Of a stretch of 41,141 bases of DNA, positions 1-41,141 are shown in pieces. The stretch comes from a virus: positions 1 to 41,141 of the IMG/VR virus record IMGVR_UViG_3300044644_000407; one strand, given 5' to 3'. Every line of letters begins with the position of its first letter. Position 1 is the stretch's first letter. Made by a program: the position numbers and the translations under genes. Under the pieces are notes generated by a model. It was not told where the DNA came from and ran no database searches. It was given only the letters and a program-made list of their open reading frames with translations.

Positions 1-77
1 CTAACGCCGACTTTCAGGCCCTCAGCGGTATTGCCATCACCGACTTGGTACCCATCACCAACCATTGGAAGTCCCAT
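1..77 (-). CDS. Partial head-fibre/decoration-like protein, 5' end only
   Basis: Only the first 25 codons are present; the gene runs off the left edge. The start is an ATG at 75-77 with a good AGGAG ribosome site just upstream, 15 bases after the stop of the 85-residue gene. The visible N-terminus (M-x-LP-x-VGDGYQ-x-GDGN) closely matches that of the 102-residue protein at 40600-40908. It is therefore probably a paralog or alternative allele of that head-decoration protein. It lies on the 1-429 stretch that I infer to be a second allele of the region downstream of the coat gene. Confidence 0.6.
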   Translation of the reverse strand, partial: MGLPMVGDGYQVGDGNTAEGLKVGV

Positions 78-92
78 GTTTCAAATCTCCTA

Positions 93-350
93 TTAGGCCG
101 AGCCTTTCCACAGGCCCAGCGCAGTGAGGGTAGCCGCCACTTCAGCCGCAAATTCAGCAACTTTGGAGGCCGCGCTCATCACAGATGATGCGGACACAAC
201 GGACGCCGCTTGGATCGACGCAGCACGCTGCACGACAGGCGTCTGGCCATAAAACCCGACTTTGCCGCCAAGGGCAGGAGCCTTGCCGATGGTGGCATCG
301 TCAAGATCCTGATCCTCGTAGGCTACGCCGATAGGCTTAGTGTAGGACAT
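93..350 (-). CDS. Head-fibre-like small virion protein (85 aa)
   Basis: This small protein follows the coat gene stop by three bases. Its N-terminus (TKPIGVAYED) matches the 81-residue protein at 39638-39883. Its middle carries the KVGFYG-x-x-PVVQRA module shared with that protein and with the 102-residue protein at 40600-40908, and it ends in ALGLWKGSA exactly as the 81-residue protein does. The GFYG-x-x-PV-x-Q signature is common in small phage proteins beside coat genes that are annotated as head fibre proteins. I infer a role as a capsid surface fibre or decoration. The Ala/Ser/Val-rich second half is probably helical or coiled. Function is by family resemblance only. Confidence 0.7.
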   Translation of the reverse strand: MSYTKPIGVAYEDQDLDDATIGKAPALGGKVGFYGQTPVVQRAASIQAASVVSASSVMSAASKVAEFAAEVAATLTALGLWKGSA

Positions 351-353
351 GGT

Positions 354-1556
354 TTACCCCCAAACGCGGACGGCCATTTCGGGACGAATCACCTTGTAGC
401 CGTACAGAACGTCAATACGGCACGGCAGGCGGTCGTTGTTGATGTCGTACTGACGCACGATCCGCATGGAGATGCCGTTGTGGACCTGACGCGAGGCCAT
501 ATCGACGCCTTGCGGCATGATAAGGTCGGCGGTGGCGAAGGTGATGGCGTCGCGGTGATAGGCGAGGTTCTGCGGGTACTGCGACGCAGCCGAGCCAAGC
601 ATCGTGATGTCGGCATCGTTGAGCGGGAAAGCGTCAACGGTAGCCAGCGGGTGCGCAGCGGTGTACAGCGCAGGGGCGAACTTCAGGGTGCCGGTCGAAG
701 AACCCGTCAGATCCTCGGTCACCACGAACTGCTGAAGCGAGCCGGTGGATTCGCGGGTCTGCGGGTTGACCGCAAAAACGCTTTGCATGGTGAACACATC
801 GCCAACTTTCCAAGTCTTTGAAGAACCCGTAAAGGTGATGGCCAGTTGGGACGTGCCCTGCGCGGTCGGGGCGCCGTCAACCTCAATCGCCGTGCCCCAG
901 TCGCCCGTAGTGTGGACCTTCATCGACTGCGACATGGCCAGCTCCTCGAAGCCGAGGATGCCTTCGCCCATCAGACCCGACTTGAACTGACGGGAGATGG
1001 TGCTGACCGGGTTGAACAGGCCCTTCATGCCTTCCACCAGACCGGCGTTCGCAGCCGGGTTGACGGTCAGGTAACGGGGGCTGGCAACCGCCGCCGCTTC
1101 GTTCATCTTTTGCTGGGCCTGGAGCAGGACCAGCGAGGTCGCGGGTGTGGTGCCCGGGGTGCCGACCGAGTTAAAGATGTTCTTGTAGGCGTTGGCGACG
1201 TCAGCGTCGATGCTGGACGCAAGCTGAGAGATCCTCGGCTTGAGCACTCGGTCGGCGAAGTCGTCGAGGGACATCGTAAGCTCAGCGGTCGTGAAGTTCA
1301 CGCCGATGTGCTTCTGGCTGTCCACGGTCAGGGTGACCTGCTGCTGGCTGACGTCCTGCACTTGCAGAGCGGCACCGTCAGTCACCAGAGAGCGGTCCGG
1401 CAGGCGGATACGCAGGCTGGAGCCGATCTTGGCGCCTTCGATGGCGAAGCTGTCATCGTAAGCGCGGTTGACGTTGCGGGTGATTACGAGGTTGTTCTCC
1501 AGAATCTCCAGAGCCTTCCTCGTAATCATGTCGATTGTGAGCAATGAATTCGACAC
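354..1556 (-). CDS. Major capsid protein, P22 coat (gene 5) family
   Basis: The 400-residue product has the organisation of the P22 coat protein family, which builds the icosahedral shell on an HK97-type fold. Recognisable family features are the N-terminal SLLTIDMITRKALEILENN segment, then a GAKIGSSLRIRLP strand, a long middle region, and the C-terminal RIDVLYGYKVIRPEMAVRVWG tail. The start is GTG at 1556 with a purine-rich GAAAGGAAAG ribosome site. The scaffold gene lies just upstream, the usual neighbour. A second copy of the last 67 codons is present at 40939-41141. Its final 127 bases are identical to 430-556, which I read as the point where the circular genome closes. Confidence 0.93.
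   Translation of the reverse strand: MSNSLLTIDMITRKALEILENNLVITRNVNRAYDDSFAIEGAKIGSSLRIRLPDRSLVTDGAALQVQDVSQQQVTLTVDSQKHIGVNFTTAELTMSLDDFADRVLKPRISQLASSIDADVANAYKNIFNSVGTPGTTPATSLVLLQAQQKMNEAAAVASPRYLTVNPAANAGLVEGMKGLFNPVSTISRQFKSGLMGEGILGFEELAMSQSMKVHTTGDWGTAIEVDGAPTAQGTSQLAITFTGSSKTWKVGDVFTMQSVFAVNPQTRESTGSLQQFVVTEDLTGSSTGTLKFAPALYTAAHPLATVDAFPLNDADITMLGSAASQYPQNLAYHRDAITFATADLIMPQGVDMASRQVHNGISMRIVRQYDINNDRLPCRIDVLYGYKVIRPEMAVRVWG
430..556. repeat. 127-bp exact repeat, copy in coat gene
   Basis: Identical to 41015-41141; the preceding base differs (429 g, 41014 a). The other copy ends exactly at the contig edge, so the two mark a join in assembly rather than a biological terminal repeat at both ends. 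Confidence 0.9.
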
Positions 1557-3690: not shown

Positions 3691-5130
3691 TCAAATGACC
3701 ATTTGACGCAGCAGCACGGTGGACGTGTTAAGGCCCATGTAGATGTAATCTATTTCCGTTGTTCCGTCTTTGTAGGTCACATCAAATGCCGTATCGCCAA
3801 CAAGTGCTGCACCTTGGGTGTAGGTCATTGTGCCCCACGGTTGCATGGCATTTTCGGGGAAATCGTAAGCAAACCAGCGACCCGTAGCTTCTTTTGAAAT
3901 GTAAAGGCGATCTTTTAGATATGCGTACTTTGTGCCGGTCGTAAACGTTTCGGTCGCAGGGGAGTATGTAATTGCGGCCCAAGTGTTTGCTGCAATGTCG
4001 TAACGATCTAGCGCGGCGCTGGCGCCCCCTCTAAGCGAGAAAATGTAGCGCCCATTTAGGATGGCGTTTTCATTGGTCCAATCAGCAGCGGTTGCGCTGT
4101 GAATCCAATGACCGCTGGCCCCTGCGCCGGGCGCCGCGCCGCGAGCAACGCCGGGCGTAAGCGTCGTCCAAGTGTTACCGCTGATGCTGTAGCGGTAGAA
4201 CGTAACGGCGTTGTTGCCCATGAAATAGATAAAATCGTCATTACCCTCGATGCTGTACTGGCTGGTAGCGTCCGGGGTAACAGTCCAGTTTGCTGAAACA
4301 GTGATGACGGTTGCAGTATTGGAAGCAATCGTGCGGATTTGCCCCGCTCCGGTACCTGCGGAAATGCGAATCTGATAGTTAGTCCATTGGTTAACGGTCC
4401 AATTCTTTGCGGAATTGGTGAGCGTCGCCGTGCCGCCCGCCGTAGCGGTGCCAGTCGCAAACGACTTAAATCCAGCGTCAATCCATGCCGGGGTGCTAAT
4501 CAGTCGGCCATCAGTGCCAATGGTTGCCGCAAGACCTGTAATTGCTAGTGTTGTCCAAGTGTTAGTAGCAAAATCGTATTTTCGAAAACTGCCCGCAGCC
4601 AACGTGCCTGCGCCAAGAACATAAAACACTGGCGATATGATGCGATATTGACTGGTAGCATCAAAAGCCACGGCCTCGGCCGCGCCTTCAAACGTGATGA
4701 CGGCGTTAGTTCCGATGGCGTTTGATGCAATAGTCTTTAGTCGGCCAGCGTTTGTGCCCCCGACAAAATAGACACTGTAGCCCCTAAGATACCGCGCAAG
4801 AGTTTGGTTGGTCGTAATAGACGTGGTAGTACCTGCGGTAGCGGTCAGCAAAGACGCAGCGACCGTAGTTCCAGTCGAAAACGCCCCGGCAACGCCGCAC
4901 GCCCCGGCGCCGAACGTACCTGCAAGCGCGGGGCTAGGCACTTGAATCCAACCATCTTCAGATGGGTTGTAAAGAAACGCGCTGGTGTTTGATTGCACCA
5001 GCATTTGCTGCTGCCGGTAGTGGCGGCTAGAAACAGTAAAATGCGCTGCCGCTGTTACACTTGGAAGCGGGGTACAAAACTCCCACCGCTTGAGGTCAAG
5101 GATTTTGCGATTGCCGTTAGTGGTGGGCAT
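3691..5130 (-). CDS. Kelch-like beta-propeller virion protein with duplicated insert domain
   Basis: The 479-residue product contains several kelch-type blade motifs: YDFATNTWTTL, YRYSISGNTWTTL and LDRYDIAANTWAAI. These predict a beta-propeller of the sort phages use in fibres or adhesins. Two inserts resemble each other: about residues 85-165 (AGRLKTIASN then ATSQYRI) and about 225-295 (AGQIRTIASN then ATSQYSI). This indicates an internal domain duplication. There is no signal peptide. It lies in the leftward operon between a Thr-rich small protein and the repeat protein, upstream of scaffold and coat. It is probably a structural component; a receptor- or polysaccharide-binding role is inference. 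Confidence 0.72.
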   Translation of the reverse strand: MPTTNGNRKILDLKRWEFCTPLPSVTAAAHFTVSSRHYRQQQMLVQSNTSAFLYNPSEDGWIQVPSPALAGTFGAGACGVAGAFSTGTTVAASLLTATAGTTTSITTNQTLARYLRGYSVYFVGGTNAGRLKTIASNAIGTNAVITFEGAAEAVAFDATSQYRIISPVFYVLGAGTLAAGSFRKYDFATNTWTTLAITGLAATIGTDGRLISTPAWIDAGFKSFATGTATAGGTATLTNSAKNWTVNQWTNYQIRISAGTGAGQIRTIASNTATVITVSANWTVTPDATSQYSIEGNDDFIYFMGNNAVTFYRYSISGNTWTTLTPGVARGAAPGAGASGHWIHSATAADWTNENAILNGRYIFSLRGGASAALDRYDIAANTWAAITYSPATETFTTGTKYAYLKDRLYISKEATGRWFAYDFPENAMQPWGTMTYTQGAALVGDTAFDVTYKDGTTEIDYIYMGLNTSTVLLRQMVI

Positions 5131-21262: not shown

Positions 21263-21922
21263 TTAGGCTGCGACGCGACGACGACGGCGCGGCTGCTCGG
21301 CGTCCTCTGCCGCCTCGACTTCCGGCTCGGCGTCGGCGTCAGCCGCGTCCTCGCCCGTCATCGAGACCCAATCCACAACCCCAAATTCCGGGGTGTAAAT
21401 CCTGCCGTACTGCTTGTGTTGATAATGGCTCTTCGACAGCGTGACCACCGGCACCGGCTTGCTGGGGTCCTTCTCGACCTGCTCGGCGATCTTCAAGGCC
21501 AGTTCCTGCACGGCGCGTTTGCCACCGACCGAGGTAGTGGCGTACCGCACCTCCAGCCCTTCGTCCTCACCGCTGGTGCACTTGGCTTGCAGGCCGACCT
21601 GCAACTCCCAGCCTTTGCGGGCGCCGGGCGGCGCAGCGTCCACCTCCGGCAGCGGCTGGGTGATCGGCACCAACTTTTCGGCAAGAACATCACCCTCGCC
21701 CCAAGCGATAAAGCCGTGGACGAAACCGAAGGGGTTGATGGCCCACTTGCTGCCCTCCTCCACCTCGGTTTGATCGGCGCCGAAAACCCAATGGCCCCCT
21801 TTGTCCATCTTGAGGATGGCGCTACCGGCGGGGCCGACGTCGGCTTGGATGGCCCGAAGGGCGGTGGACAGGCTAGCGACTGCGGGAAGGTTTGCTCCAG
21901 CGAACTTAACAAGACCAGTCAT
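21263..21922 (-). CDS. Putative ssDNA-binding-type protein with acidic tail
   Basis: The 219-residue protein begins MTGLVKFAGANLPAVASLSTAL after a GGAG site. A central beta-rich region (AILKMDKGGHWVFGADQTEVEEG then WAINPFGFVHGFIAWG) is followed by a C-terminal run of Glu/Asp/Ala that ends RRRRRVAA. It lies between the RecB/Cas4-like nuclease and the DNA polymerase, where phages usually encode their ssDNA-binding protein. The acidic tail fits that role, though the final basic cluster does not. No OB-fold signature is certain. Its expression is probably higher than that of the genes beyond the attenuator. Confidence 0.7.
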   Translation of the reverse strand: MTGLVKFAGANLPAVASLSTALRAIQADVGPAGSAILKMDKGGHWVFGADQTEVEEGSKWAINPFGFVHGFIAWGEGDVLAEKLVPITQPLPEVDAAPPGARKGWELQVGLQAKCTSGEDEGLEVRYATTSVGGKRAVQELALKIAEQVEKDPSKPVPVVTLSKSHYQHKQYGRIYTPEFGVVDWVSMTGEDAADADAEPEVEAAEDAEQPRRRRRVAA

Positions 21923-37894: not shown

Positions 37895-38274
37895 GCCAGA
37901 ACCTCCAAGGTGACCCCTGCCGGGTAGGTGGCTCGCATCTCGACAGCCGCGTCGCCCAGGTACGGGAATTCGATCTGATTGGTGGCGCCGGAGACCGTGT
38001 AGGTCTCAACGGCAGTGGTGATGGTGCCCAGCCGGTCGCGGGAATCCAGAGTGACCGTGCCGGTGCCGACAATCCGCAGCCGGAAGAGGCTTGGCGCACC
38101 GATCCACTCGCCTGAATAGCTGGTGCCAGTCCAAGTAGTCTGCCCCCGCACCGCGTTGATGAGTTGATCGACGGTCGTGCGTTCCGTCGCCCCGCCCTGC
38201 ACCAACGGCACTAGCTCGTCGCCAGTCAGGGGCGTCGATGCGACCGGCAGTTGAGAAATCTTGATGTTTGCCAT
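37891..38274 (-). CDS. Small tail/fibre adaptor-like protein (127 aa)
   Basis: The N-terminus KISQLPVASTPLTGDELVPL then VQGGATERTTVDQLI is a motif widespread in phage tail fibre and structural proteins (ISQLP-A---T-DE-VPVVQ-G-T-R-TV). The rest is beta-rich (FRLRIVGTGTVTLDSRDRLG, then IEFPYLGDAAVEMRATYPAG). It lies directly after the gp4-like gene with a one-base overlap, so it probably joins appendages to the tail hub. Confidence 0.7.
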   Translation of the reverse strand: MANIKISQLPVASTPLTGDELVPLVQGGATERTTVDQLINAVRGQTTWTGTSYSGEWIGAPSLFRLRIVGTGTVTLDSRDRLGTITTAVETYTVSGATNQIEFPYLGDAAVEMRATYPAGVTLEVLA

Positions 38275-38987
38275 TAGTATGATCCGGCGTAGATGTTGTA
38301 CCGGCCCCGCCGCGCCACGATGCTGTAGGGCATGGACATGACGTCGTCGGGGAAGTTGACCCGCTTGAGGTTACGCTTGCTGGTCATAGCGATCCGCTGC
38401 ACGGTCGGCGGCGGCTCGATGCCAAACTCGTTAGCGATCTCGCAGGCGAGGCTGTACTTGAAGCAGCGCAGGTATCCTGGCGGGAAGGCCAGCACGGTCG
38501 CTGCGTTGACAGGCTGGGTCAGCGGCTCCACGGACACGAAATGCCACTCCAACGGCCTTGTAGCCACCGGGTAGATGGTCATCTCGATGTCGGGGTTCGT
38601 GAAGTTCGGCCATATGACCTGCGGGTAGGTTGCCGTAACCGTTTTGAGCGCGATGCCGTTGTACTGCTGCTGGTTGATGATCTTGATGCCGTAGCTCAAA
38701 CCATTCGCCGGATCGCGGAAGTAGGTGGCGTCGTCGAGCTTCACGGGGCGCCCACCTACAAAATTGCCCGTGGGGCCGAGTGTGCGTGTCGCCACGCCTT
38801 GCGGCCAAGTGAAGACTTGGTCTTGCGTGGCGTAGACCATTAGCCGCTCAAGGTTCCAGCTATCGATCATCTGCTGCATCGCCGCGAGAGCGTCTTGTGT
38901 CGTCGCAGCGGAGGGCACCTCGCCTTCGGCTAGTTGCCCGATCAGGCGCAGCGCCGCGTTAATCTGGTCCCCGGCGGTCGTGCTCAT
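38274..38987 (-). CDS. Tail accessory/head-to-tail adaptor, P22 gp4-like
   Basis: The 237-residue protein opens with DQINAALRLIGQLAEGEVPS, then AATTQDALAAMQQMIDSWNL and ERLMVYATQDQVFTWPQG, the pattern of the P22 tail accessory factor gp4 family. Later conserved parts are RPVKLDDATYFRD, QQYNGIALK, YPVATRPLEWHFVS and AFPPGYLRCFKYSLACEIANEFG. It binds the portal ring to begin tail assembly. P22 gp4 also has muramidase activity; I see no basis to claim it here. It overlaps the small upstream gene by 29 bases. Confidence 0.88.
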   Translation of the reverse strand: MSTTAGDQINAALRLIGQLAEGEVPSAATTQDALAAMQQMIDSWNLERLMVYATQDQVFTWPQGVATRTLGPTGNFVGGRPVKLDDATYFRDPANGLSYGIKIINQQQYNGIALKTVTATYPQVIWPNFTNPDIEMTIYPVATRPLEWHFVSVEPLTQPVNAATVLAFPPGYLRCFKYSLACEIANEFGIEPPPTVQRIAMTSKRNLKRVNFPDDVMSMPYSIVARRGRYNIYAGSY

Positions 38988-39150
38988 TGGTCACCCTCGG
39001 TCGGCCACGCCGCGCCACGACAAGCTCGTTGGGCGCAACTTCTTCGCCGGGAGTATACCGCTCCCAGCCGTTTTTCTCATCTGCTTCCGCTTCCATGTCC
39101 ATCGTCGCAACCTTGTGGCCGTGAACGGGGTGCTTGAGATGGATAATCAC
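38959..39150 (-). CDS. Small phage protein before gp4-like gene (63 aa, GTG start)
   Basis: The GTG start at 39150 overlaps the methyltransferase stop as GTGA. The product MIIHLKHPVHGHKVATMDME continues AEADEKNGWERYTPGEEVAP and ends NEHDRRGPD. This HP-HG-KVATM--EA--DE-NGW-RY pattern is common in small phage proteins encoded just upstream of gp4-like genes. Its function is not established. The 29-base overlap with the gp4-like start suggests coupled translation. Confidence 0.75.
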   Translation of the reverse strand: MIIHLKHPVHGHKVATMDMEAEADEKNGWERYTPGEEVAPNELVVARRGRPRVTNEHDRRGPD

Positions 39151-39641
39151 TTAAACCCCACGCCCAAAAGGTTGTTGAACGCCGTGCGCTTGATATGCAC
39201 TTCCGAAAACTGTTTCAGGCTGTCTCGTAGCGTGTCCGACACAAAACCGCAGTGGTGCGCCATGTACGGGTTGTTTTCAAGCGCGGTGCGCAGCCCGTAC
39301 ATCAGGTCTAGGCCAGTAATTGGCCCTGCCGGAGACACGTACAGCACATCTTCCGTCGGATAAACGTCTTCCAGATCCGGCACAAGAATGACGGCCTTAC
39401 CGCCGGGCTTTAGAACCCGATAGATCTCCGAGACTGCTTGCGGTACTTCGTGCGGGTAGACGTGTTCCAGCACATGCGAGCAGTACACGATGTCAAATTC
39501 GCCCACAGCACCCATGTCGGTGATGCTGGCGACGATGTCCGGCTCACACTCGGCGCAGGCGTCGAGCCGCACTTCTTCGCAAGCGGGGAACCACTCAGGA
39601 AGTGGCCCCCGCCCGCAGCCTGCGTGCAAGACTCGGATCAA
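39147..39641 (-). CDS. Class I SAM-dependent methyltransferase (Methyltransf_11-type)
   Basis: The product has motif I VLHAGCGRGPLPEW, an acidic LDACAE at the end of the second strand, DIVYCSHVLEHV (motif II with the HVLEH signature) and LKPGGKAVILVPD (motif III). These are marks of small-molecule or sugar methyltransferases. I use the TTG at 39641, which overlaps the preceding stop as TTGA after GGAAAGG; a GTG at 39656 is the alternative. It lies in a cassette with a glycosyltransferase and two head-fibre-like proteins, so methylation of a glycan is a reasonable inference, not shown. Confidence 0.85.
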   Translation of the reverse strand: MIRVLHAGCGRGPLPEWFPACEEVRLDACAECEPDIVASITDMGAVGEFDIVYCSHVLEHVYPHEVPQAVSEIYRVLKPGGKAVILVPDLEDVYPTEDVLYVSPAGPITGLDLMYGLRTALENNPYMAHHCGFVSDTLRDSLKQFSEVHIKRTAFNNLLGVGFK

Positions 39642-39883
39642 GCCGAGCCTTTCCACAGGCCAAGCGCGGACAGCGTGTTCATGATTTCCTGAACCGCTGC
39701 CAGTTGCGTAGCCCCAAACGATGCGGACGTTGCAATGTTGGTAGTCGCTTGCACGCTTGATGCACGCTGTGTAACGGGCGCTTTGCCATAAAATCCCACA
39801 GTGCCGCCAGACGTGCCGATGATGGCATCGTTGAGCACTGGGTCTTCAAAGGCCACGCCGATTGGCTTGGTGTTTTGAGGCAT
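39638..39883 (-). CDS. Head-fibre-like protein, paralog (81 aa)
   Basis: N-terminal QNTKPIGVAFEDPVLNDAII is nearly that of the 85-residue protein at 93-350. The middle TVGFYGKAPVTQRASSVQA and SASFGATQLAAVQEI match the 102-residue protein at 40600-40908. The end ALGLWKGSA equals that of the 85-residue protein. It thus looks like a mosaic of both. Probably a capsid surface fibre or decoration. It lies between glycosyltransferase and methyltransferase genes. Confidence 0.72.
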   Translation of the reverse strand: MPQNTKPIGVAFEDPVLNDAIIGTSGGTVGFYGKAPVTQRASSVQATTNIATSASFGATQLAAVQEIMNTLSALGLWKGSA

Positions 39884-39885
39884 GT

Positions 39886-40566
39886 CTACTCCACGTAGAG
39901 GTCGCCGCCGGGTTGCTGACGCAGGTACGTATGAAAGTTACCTTCGTAAGCCTTCTCGGTGGTGTGATGCGTAATGTCAAGGTCGGGCACGATAATCAGT
40001 TCCCCGCCCGCATCCCGCCAGTTACGACAGAATGCGTAGTCTTCACCGTACCACACGCCTTTGTGCGCCCCATGATTGAACAAGTCGATATACGGGTTAA
40101 ATTTATCGCCGTATGCCAGTTCCGGGTAGGCAGTCATGAACTTGTTGACCGCCTGCTTGGTTATCTTCAGAAACCCCGCTGGCGCAGAGAACGCCAGCAA
40201 CGCGCCGTCATCCCGCACCAGAGGCGAGCCGTCAGCGTCGGTAAGCACCGACCCCATGTACTCGACTTCGTCTCTCTTGAAGCGATACGTCCCCGCAACC
40301 ACGTCGCCTTTGGTTTCAATCAGGGTCAGAAGGTCTTGAGGCTTCCAGGAAAGATCGTGGTCGATAAACACAATAACGTCTGCTTTTACGTCGAGCGCCT
40401 TGCGCAGCATGGTGGCCCGAGCGGCTGAGATGTAGGGGCAGCCGATTTCGGACACCATGCCTTCCTCCCATCCCGCTGCTTGAATCAACGGAACAGAAGC
40501 CGCAAGGCTATCGAGCGTTTGCTGGTACGGTTTTTTAAGCGTTGGGATGCAGAAGATAACTTTCAT
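39886..40566 (-). CDS. Glycosyltransferase, GT-A-type
   Basis: The 226-residue protein starts MKVIFCIPTLKKPYQQTLDS, typical of the nucleotide-sugar-binding first strand, and has the metal-binding acidic motif IDHDLSW at about residues 73-79, with VVAGTYRFKR and WYGEDYAFCRNWRDAGG further on. ED in GEDYAFCR is the usual acceptor-side catalytic position in GT-A enzymes. There is no membrane segment, so it acts in the cytoplasm, on a virion protein or a host glycan. Lying between two head-fibre-like genes, it may glycosylate those proteins; this is inference. Confidence 0.85.
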   Translation of the reverse strand: MKVIFCIPTLKKPYQQTLDSLAASVPLIQAAGWEEGMVSEIGCPYISAARATMLRKALDVKADVIVFIDHDLSWKPQDLLTLIETKGDVVAGTYRFKRDEVEYMGSVLTDADGSPLVRDDGALLAFSAPAGFLKITKQAVNKFMTAYPELAYGDKFNPYIDLFNHGAHKGVWYGEDYAFCRNWRDAGGELIIVPDLDITHHTTEKAYEGNFHTYLRQQPGGDLYVE

Positions 40567-40575
40567 GGGTTGTCA

Positions 40576-40591
40576 GGGGGCCGAAGCCCCC
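40576..40591. other. GC-rich UUCG-type hairpin between head-fibre and glycosyltransferase genes
   Basis: On the minus strand GGGGGC-TTCG-GCCCCC forms six pairs with a very stable tetraloop, 10 bases before the glycosyltransferase ATG. No T-tract follows, so it is not a clear terminator. The same stem-loop recurs before the DNA polymerase gene (21230-21247). Confidence 0.6.
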
Positions 40592-40599
40592 CCGCAAAG

Positions 40600-40908
40600 T
40601 TACGCAGTGGCGTAAATGCCCAGACCAATCAGCGTCAGTTGGATCTCTTGCAGCGCGGCCAGTTGGGTCGCGCCGAAAGAAGCTGACGTTGCAATGGCGC
40701 TGGTGGCGTGGACAGCGGAGCTATACGCCCGCCGGACCACCGGAACCTTGCCGTAAAAGCCGACTTTCGACGTCCCAGCAGAGCCCAGCCTTACGCCCCC
40801 GGCGCCGTTGGCAACTTGAACGACCTGCCCCGATGCGCCTACGTTGAGTACCTCGTCGAGATTGCCATCACCAGTTTGATAGCCGTCACCAACCTTCGGA
40901 AGTGCCAT
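40600..40908 (-). CDS. Head-fibre-like protein (102 aa)
   Basis: The ATG has a GAGAGGAA site. The N-terminal ALPKVGDGYQTGDGNLDEVL matches the partial gene at 1-77. A Gly/Ala/Val-rich link leads to the shared KVGFYGKVPVVRRA module, then SASFGATQLAALQEI and an unusual end (GLGIYATA). It directly follows the second copy of the coat 3' end. It is the first gene after the coat in the circular reading and should decorate the capsid. Confidence 0.72.
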   Translation of the reverse strand: MALPKVGDGYQTGDGNLDEVLNVGASGQVVQVANGAGGVRLGSAGTSKVGFYGKVPVVRRAYSSAVHATSAIATSASFGATQLAALQEIQLTLIGLGIYATA

Positions 40909-40938: not shown

Positions 40939-41141
40939 CTAGCCCCAGACGCGCACAGCCATCTCAGGACGGATCACCTTGTAGCCGTACAGCACATCAA
41001 TACGACACGGCAGACGGTCGTTGTTGATGTCGTACTGACGCACGATCCGCATGGAGATGCCGTTGTGGACCTGACGCGAGGCCATATCGACGCCTTGCGG
41101 CATGATAAGGTCGGCGGTGGCGAAGGTGATGGCGTCGCGGT
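40939..41141 (-). CDS. Major capsid protein 3' end (partial, second copy)
   Basis: The last 67 codons of a P22-type coat gene with a TAG stop. They encode the same C-terminal residues as 354-556. The first 76 bases next to the stop differ from the other copy at about a dozen positions, mostly synonymous, while the remaining 127 are identical. In a circular reading this is the true 3' end of the coat gene whose 5' part is 557-1556. Confidence 0.85.
   Translation of the reverse strand, partial: RDAITFATADLIMPQGVDMASRQVHNGISMRIVRQYDINNDRLPCRIDVLYGYKVIRPEMAVRVWG
41015..41141. repeat. 127-bp exact repeat, copy at right end of the contig
   Basis: Identical to 430-556 and ending at the last base of the window. 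The length is a typical maximum k-mer setting of short-read assemblers, which supports an assembly join. See the entry at 430-556. Confidence 0.9.

Follow-up and report, generated by a model that had tools for sequence, protein, structure and literature searches.

We have identified, at one end of an uncultured virus record of 41,141 bp (IMGVR_UViG_3300044644_000407, analysed over its full length and referred to here as the window), a block of genes that probably represents an exchangeable virion self-glycosylation cassette acting on small surface proteins, a reading to which we assign a probability of about 0.6. The block follows a P22-type major coat gene and encodes a glycosyltransferase (GT), a methyltransferase (MT) and two proteins of 102 and 81 aa (small proteins 1 and 2). 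Across related loci, presence of the GT goes with one type of domain in the small proteins, and the whole block is exchanged between near-identical phages.

Two enzymes embedded beside the coat gene

Proteins encoded in the window include a P22-type portal (PF16510, E 4e-177), scaffold, coat, the product of an adaptor-like gene and a family A DNA polymerase. The minus strand of the right-hand end carries, in order, the coat gene's 3' end, small protein 1, the GT, small protein 2, the MT, a 63-aa ORF and the adaptor-like gene. The initial annotation had placed four ORFs between 39147 and 40908, directly after the coat gene, and all four are present there and intact. The features of this end are:

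40939–41139, minus: 3' end of the P22-type major coat gene, which runs off the window (PF11651, E 1.8e-9; phrog_283, E 2.9e-17)
40600–40908, minus: small protein 1, 102 aa, anchor A plus GFYG/QR domain (ORF; 76 relatives; dN/dS 0.08–0.14)
40852–40908, minus: anchor A, residues 1–19 (MALPKVGDGYQTGDGNLDE), a putative capsid anchor; the same N-terminus occurs on decoration-like proteins of GT-less relatives
40603–40758, minus: GFYG/QR C-terminal domain of small protein 1, residues 51–102, proposed acceptor (co-varies with the GT)
39886–40566, minus: GT-A-fold glycosyltransferase, 226 aa (model pLDDT 96.5; STIV A197 Z 17.2; PF00535 sub-threshold)
40354–40362, minus: GT DXD motif D69-H70-D71 (D69 and D71 invariant in 40 homologues)
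40039–40047, minus: GT G174-E175-D176, candidate catalytic base (invariant in 40 homologues; role by analogy with A197 Asp151)
39638–39883, minus: small protein 2, 81 aa, anchor B plus GFYG/QR domain (ORF; dN/dS 0.06–0.10)
39827–39883, minus: anchor B, residues 1–19 (MPQNTKPIGVAFEDPVLND), putative; the same N-terminal peptide occurs on other C-terminal domains in GT-less relatives
39641–39793, minus: GFYG/QR C-terminal domain of small protein 2, residues 31–81, proposed acceptor (A and B domains within a cassette matched above random pairings)
39147–39656, minus: class I SAM-dependent methyltransferase, 169 aa, GTG start (Methyltransf_11, 47.7 bits against a cut-off of 21.2)
38959–39150, minus: conserved 63-aa ORF containing the right-hand limit of the exchanged block (homologues in the survey; identity resumes at about 39094)
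38274–38987, minus: adaptor-like gene, conserved flank (phrog_12985, E 9.4e-44, a weak head–tail adaptor match)

The gaps or overlaps of one to four bases described initially are found between the GT and small protein 2 (gap of 2 bp) and between the MT and the next ORF (overlap of 4 bp), but the remaining junctions are longer, with gaps of 30 bp between coat and small protein 1 and 33 bp between small protein 1 and the GT, and an overlap of 19 bp between small protein 2 and the MT that is also present in relatives such as L015. A survey beside P22-type coat genes, which had been suggested from the outset, finds that about 100 viral loci share this gene set and operon, and dN/dS is 0.03–0.14 for the small proteins and the GT where dS is computable. 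Thus, this gene order is not a product of chance. Elsewhere in the window, near the head genes, a 479-aa ORF (3691–5130) has kelch-repeat matches.

The 226-aa protein is, on the basis of its model, a GT-A-fold glycosyltransferase (GT2-like) by predicted activity. Structural prediction, also part of the original proposal, bears this out: the AlphaFold model (pLDDT 96.5, with 40 homologues in the input) is a single compact GT-A domain with no membrane segments, and it matches many GT-A structures, the best among realigned Foldseek candidates being A197 of Sulfolobus turreted icosahedral virus (STIV; PDB 2c0n), with Z 17.2 over 163 of 191 residues, 2.4 Å and 21% identity. The next matches are LH3, Mnn9, COLGALT1 and Mimivirus R699 (second-best Z 15.4), of which LH3 and COLGALT1 are protein glycosyltransferases. 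Residues D69, D71, E175, D176 and H200 are invariant in the 40 homologues, and D176 is a candidate catalytic base by analogy with the position of A197 Asp151. Against the curated family PF00535 (Glycos_transf_2) the protein scores 17.6 bits, below the cut-off of 23.3, and its placement therefore rests on structure; a GT profile search up to E 10 did not find A197 (2c0n). As the best 80 of 292 GT relatives were surveyed, the family is wider than the survey. A cellular origin was considered and rejected: a genome scan gave one phage contig binned with a metagenome-assembled genome (MAG) and two distant matches, and a plasmid scan gave only distant matches.

The 169-aa protein is a class I SAM-dependent methyltransferase that passes the Methyltransf_11 cut-off and has an invariant SAM-binding GxG motif (G13-C14-G15). 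The initial annotation of these proteins as a glycosyltransferase and a methyltransferase is thus supported: both are encoded among capsid-proximal genes, the former being of GT-A type with its active-site residues conserved and the latter of class I.

Small proteins and their co-variation with the glycosyltransferase

Small proteins 1 and 2 have different N-terminal peptides and a common C-terminal domain of the form GFYG..P..[QR]R (the GFYG/QR domain). Their relatives carry two N-terminal peptide types, A (MALPxxGxGYQxGDGN) and B (NTKPIGVAYEDPQLD-like), and the same peptides open decoration-like proteins at the same locus in GT-less phages, where they are joined to other C-terminal domains. 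For this reason we read A and B as probable capsid anchors and the C-terminal part as the displayed domain. The A and B domains of one cassette match each other at 74%, versus 58% for random pairings (38 non-redundant cassettes; 0 of 5000 permutations as high).

The small proteins had initially been called head-fibre or fibre-like, and this identity was not upheld: searches of Pfam (E ≤ 1) and PHROGs (E ≤ 0.1) with 45 relatives gave no head-fibre family, and neither relatives nor a convincing solved structure came from Pfam, PHROG, NCBIfam or PDB. A weak match to phrog_5711 (E 0.022) came only from a GT-less relative, L192. The AlphaFold model of small protein 1 is poor (pLDDT 66, with only two C-terminal helices). 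Because they have no structural family and a poor model, the small proteins are placed on the capsid, provisionally, by their position and shared N-termini. No solved relative was found by sequence for the decoration-like protein of about 135 aa in sister phages. In loci L178–L334, anchors A and B occur after the coat gene on several C-terminal domains (a beta type, a 'QGTVTQATSKST' type and a coiled-coil type), which suggests that this clade has a modular locus for capsid decoration in general.

Loci were sampled by GT, by small protein, by MT and by coat, the last being blind to the other three. In the resulting set of 172 non-redundant complete loci, the GFYG/QR domain was present in 69 of the 70 loci with a separate GT gene and in 0 of the 102 others. 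The 70th GT locus, L144, pairs a divergent GT with a divergent GFYG domain. One locus counted among the 102, L177, has a GT inside a 425-aa protein that exceeds the GT length limit, and its small protein is of GFYG type without the Arg. Coat-sampled sets alone contained GT loci in 7/55 and 0/66 cases, and sampling by small protein alone recovered a GT in 77/77 and 62/63 loci with room for one, these samples overlapping each other and the earlier ones. The sole exception, L462, has a GFYG/QR domain with only a truncated GT. Its ORF at L462:1467-2240 is an in-frame deletion fusion of the first part of an MT with the last ~86 residues of a GT, from which the DXD part is missing, and it is either a natural deletion or a misassembly.

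A coat tree of 129 sequences requires at least 12 changes of GT state, nine of them forced by supported branches, and in every independent pair (9/9, p 0.004) the domain type switches with the GT. As the tree is quick, with some long branches, and the genes are neighbours, this is a strong association and not proof of an enzyme–substrate pair. Physical linkage could explain part of it. The block occurs in several gene orders, however, among them A-GT-B-MT, B-A-GT and B-A-MT-GT, and some blocks have just one small protein, whether or not an MT is present. In addition, 43 of the 70 GT loci lack the MT while the GT and the GFYG/QR domain stay together; both observations disfavour simple linkage. 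We therefore propose the GFYG/QR domain as the GT acceptor, for which such co-variation would be expected. An invariant Arg60 or near-invariant Thr92, positions at which GT-less GFYG domains differ, was considered as the acceptor residue but not adopted. Since L144 and L177 pair GT homologues with GFYG domains that lack the Arg, we name no acceptor residue from conservation.

The MT is present in 27/70 loci with a separate GT gene and in 0/102 others. As it is never found without a GT, and given precedent in other viruses, its most likely role is to methylate the sugar that the GT would add. In L177 (MW202691), the 425-aa protein (L177:5956-7233) combines the GT homologue with a weakly recognised methyltransferase-like C-terminal domain, and nearby are an HNH-like gene and, following the coat gene, a small GFFG protein.

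Cassette exchange and a proposed mechanism

The left end of the window (1–1556) is the same locus as the right end with another cassette, in the order coat, B, A, as in L187–L190. Its features are:

354–1556, minus: complete coat gene of the second allele (202-bp 3' end in common with the right end at 94.6%)
93–350, minus: anchor B small protein of the left-end allele, 85 aa, GFYG/QR domain (same allele as L187–L190)
1–77, minus: start of the anchor A small protein of the left-end allele, cut by the contig end

Positions 1–556 and 40940–41141 overlap by 202 bp of coat gene, 94.6% identical, before continuing into different cassettes. L187–L190 continue beyond the small proteins with an MT and then a GT, whose DNA is about 66% and 69% identical to the right-end copies. 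We rejected a true terminal repeat because the two copies match at no more than 94.6% and lead into unlike cassettes. The most economical view is of a circular or permuted genome round which the contig passes, so that its ends represent two alleles co-existing in the sample; an assembly chimaera of two strains is the alternative.

The window also allows comparison with L181, which carries a beta-type cassette and no GT. The coat side at the left end of the window is 97.5% identical to L181 over 2.6 kb and the downstream side at the right end is 98.8% identical over 3.6 kb, and between these flanks the window has 1.76 kb and L181 has 0.76 kb of mutually unrelated sequence. Variation of this region between alleles, anticipated in the initial annotation, is thus evident as exchange of the cassette between near-identical phages and in the two alleles at the window ends. 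Such exchange fits selection on an exposed surface.

We suggest that anchors A and B would attach small proteins 1 and 2 to the outside of the capsid, where both would display the same type of GFYG/QR domain. The GT would move a sugar from a host nucleotide-sugar onto the displayed domain in the cytoplasm, before or during head assembly, and the MT, where present, would cap the added sugar by methylation. No sugar-biosynthesis gene was recognised among the window proteins scanned, and the donor is therefore assumed to be host-derived. A 219-aa protein (21263–21922) matches a PHROG nucleotidyltransferase family (E 8.7e-17). Recombination may replace the whole block with a different surface cassette, the coat gene and anchor A providing homology at one edge and the 63-aa ORF and adaptor at the other. 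The benefit would probably be altered adsorption or a shielded surface.

More tentatively, and with chances that we place slightly short of even, these phages may undergo population-level surface switching, in which two anchor peptides of P22-type phages carry interchangeable domains and one cassette class brings its own domain-specific GT, with an optional MT. If so, virions of nearly identical phages would differ in both their protein and their glycan surface.

Alternative targets and known systems

The GT could instead glycosylate the major coat protein, with the small proteins as unrelated, co-inherited decorations. Its median position 571 bp downstream of the coat gene favours this, as does A197, a candidate for glycosylating the STIV coat (PMC10551542). 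However, coats that are ~99% identical occur with and without a GT (L006 versus L178), which makes the coat the less likely acceptor. Furthermore, a GFYG/QR domain without an intact GT is seen only in L462, and the GT tracks domain type and not coat lineage; we consider a coat target unlikely. A separate explanation is that the target of the GT and MT is a glycan of the host surface (O-antigen or capsule), whose modification might serve, for instance, in superinfection exclusion; the position of the two genes would then be an accident of how cassettes are built. Phage glycosyltransferases are known to cause seroconversion, and one list of weak GT-domain relatives includes the polysaccharide enzymes WrtF and chondroitin polymerase. 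Against this, coat and small protein lie upstream of the GT, within the head operon, in 52/52 GT-sampled loci with enough upstream sequence; the modelled enzyme is compact and has no membrane segments; and close GT relatives outside viral records are almost absent. Modification of a host glycan would also not predict coupling to a virion domain type, and seems to us distinctly improbable.

The GT, MT and small proteins might also form one recombination block with no enzyme–substrate relation, the GT having some other target. Because the block is swapped as a unit between near-identical phages, some co-occurrence is expected from linkage. Yet the genes of the block stand in widely differing orders, and the MT, although just as closely linked, is often missing where GT and domain persist, so that we give linked inheritance by itself little credence. 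Other phages have well-known DNA-modifying glycosyltransferases and methyltransferases, and the enzymes could conceivably glycosylate or methylate bases of the phage genome. No base-hypermodification gene was recognised among the window proteins scanned, however, and coupling to a surface-domain type would be left unexplained; DNA modification is thus very improbable. We accordingly retain self-glycosylation of the small surface proteins as the preferred reading.

Viral self-glycosylation is already known, and each step proposed here has a precedent. STIV A197, like the GT, is a small single-domain viral GT-A enzyme with a DXD motif and an Asp base, although it belongs to an archaeal virus with a double-jelly-roll coat, and we know of no small GFYG proteins or MT in STIV. 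The gene is described as essential in STIV, and A197 is a candidate for glycosylating its coat or virion (PMC10551542, PMC4187194). Mycobacteriophages Che8 and Rita are tailed phages reported to have capsid-protein glycans and phage-encoded glycosyltransferases (Freeman 2023 as cited in PMC11256854; such glycosylation is also cited in PMC12691614). The acceptor in the mycobacteriophages is the major capsid protein, the GTs of Maravista lie near the genome 3' end and not beside the coat gene (PMC11256854), and we found no exchangeable cassette of GT and surface domain described for them in the literature consulted. In chlorovirus PBCV-1, virus-encoded GT and MT activities of A064R and A061L build a methylated capsid glycan, and the virus likewise encodes a GT-A glycosyltransferase and SAM methyltransferases; it is, however, a large eukaryotic DNA virus with multi-domain enzymes and a large N-glycan on its major capsid protein (PMC9614988). 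The genes of the present cassette are small and separate, and fused only in MW202691.

In the literature searched we found no description of an enzyme–acceptor cassette in P22-type phages, and a clearly related cassette occurs in only two of 50,697 phage records, both uncultured: MW202573 and, more distantly, MW202691, with its fused GT and MT-like domain. MW202573 (ctTUS972, Manatee Spring; circular, the same as L174) has, in this order, coat, small GFYG protein, MT, GT, a 69-aa ORF and adaptor, and its GT is 69% identical. It differs in its single small protein and in having the MT upstream of the GT, which is labelled only as an 'A197' transferase.

As documented cases of phage virion glycosylation are few, the cassette offers useful material. 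Because the co-variation names a specific small acceptor domain and an enzyme, the acceptor, sugar and benefit are testable in a small reconstitution, and phages that have or lack the cassette yet share ~98% identity on either side of it are natural matched pairs. Additionally, a compact GT with a cognate domain of ~50 residues is a possible protein-glycosylation tag. Two database records bear on how such loci are filed. MW202573 was deposited as 'Myoviridae sp.' yet has P22-type portal, coat, adaptor and stabilization genes. The contig L335 (VFKX01000066.1) is assigned to a Candidatus Falkowbacteria MAG and encodes coat, a small GFYG protein, MT and GT; it looks like phage DNA that was co-binned with this MAG, or else like a phage with a Candidatus Falkowbacteria host.
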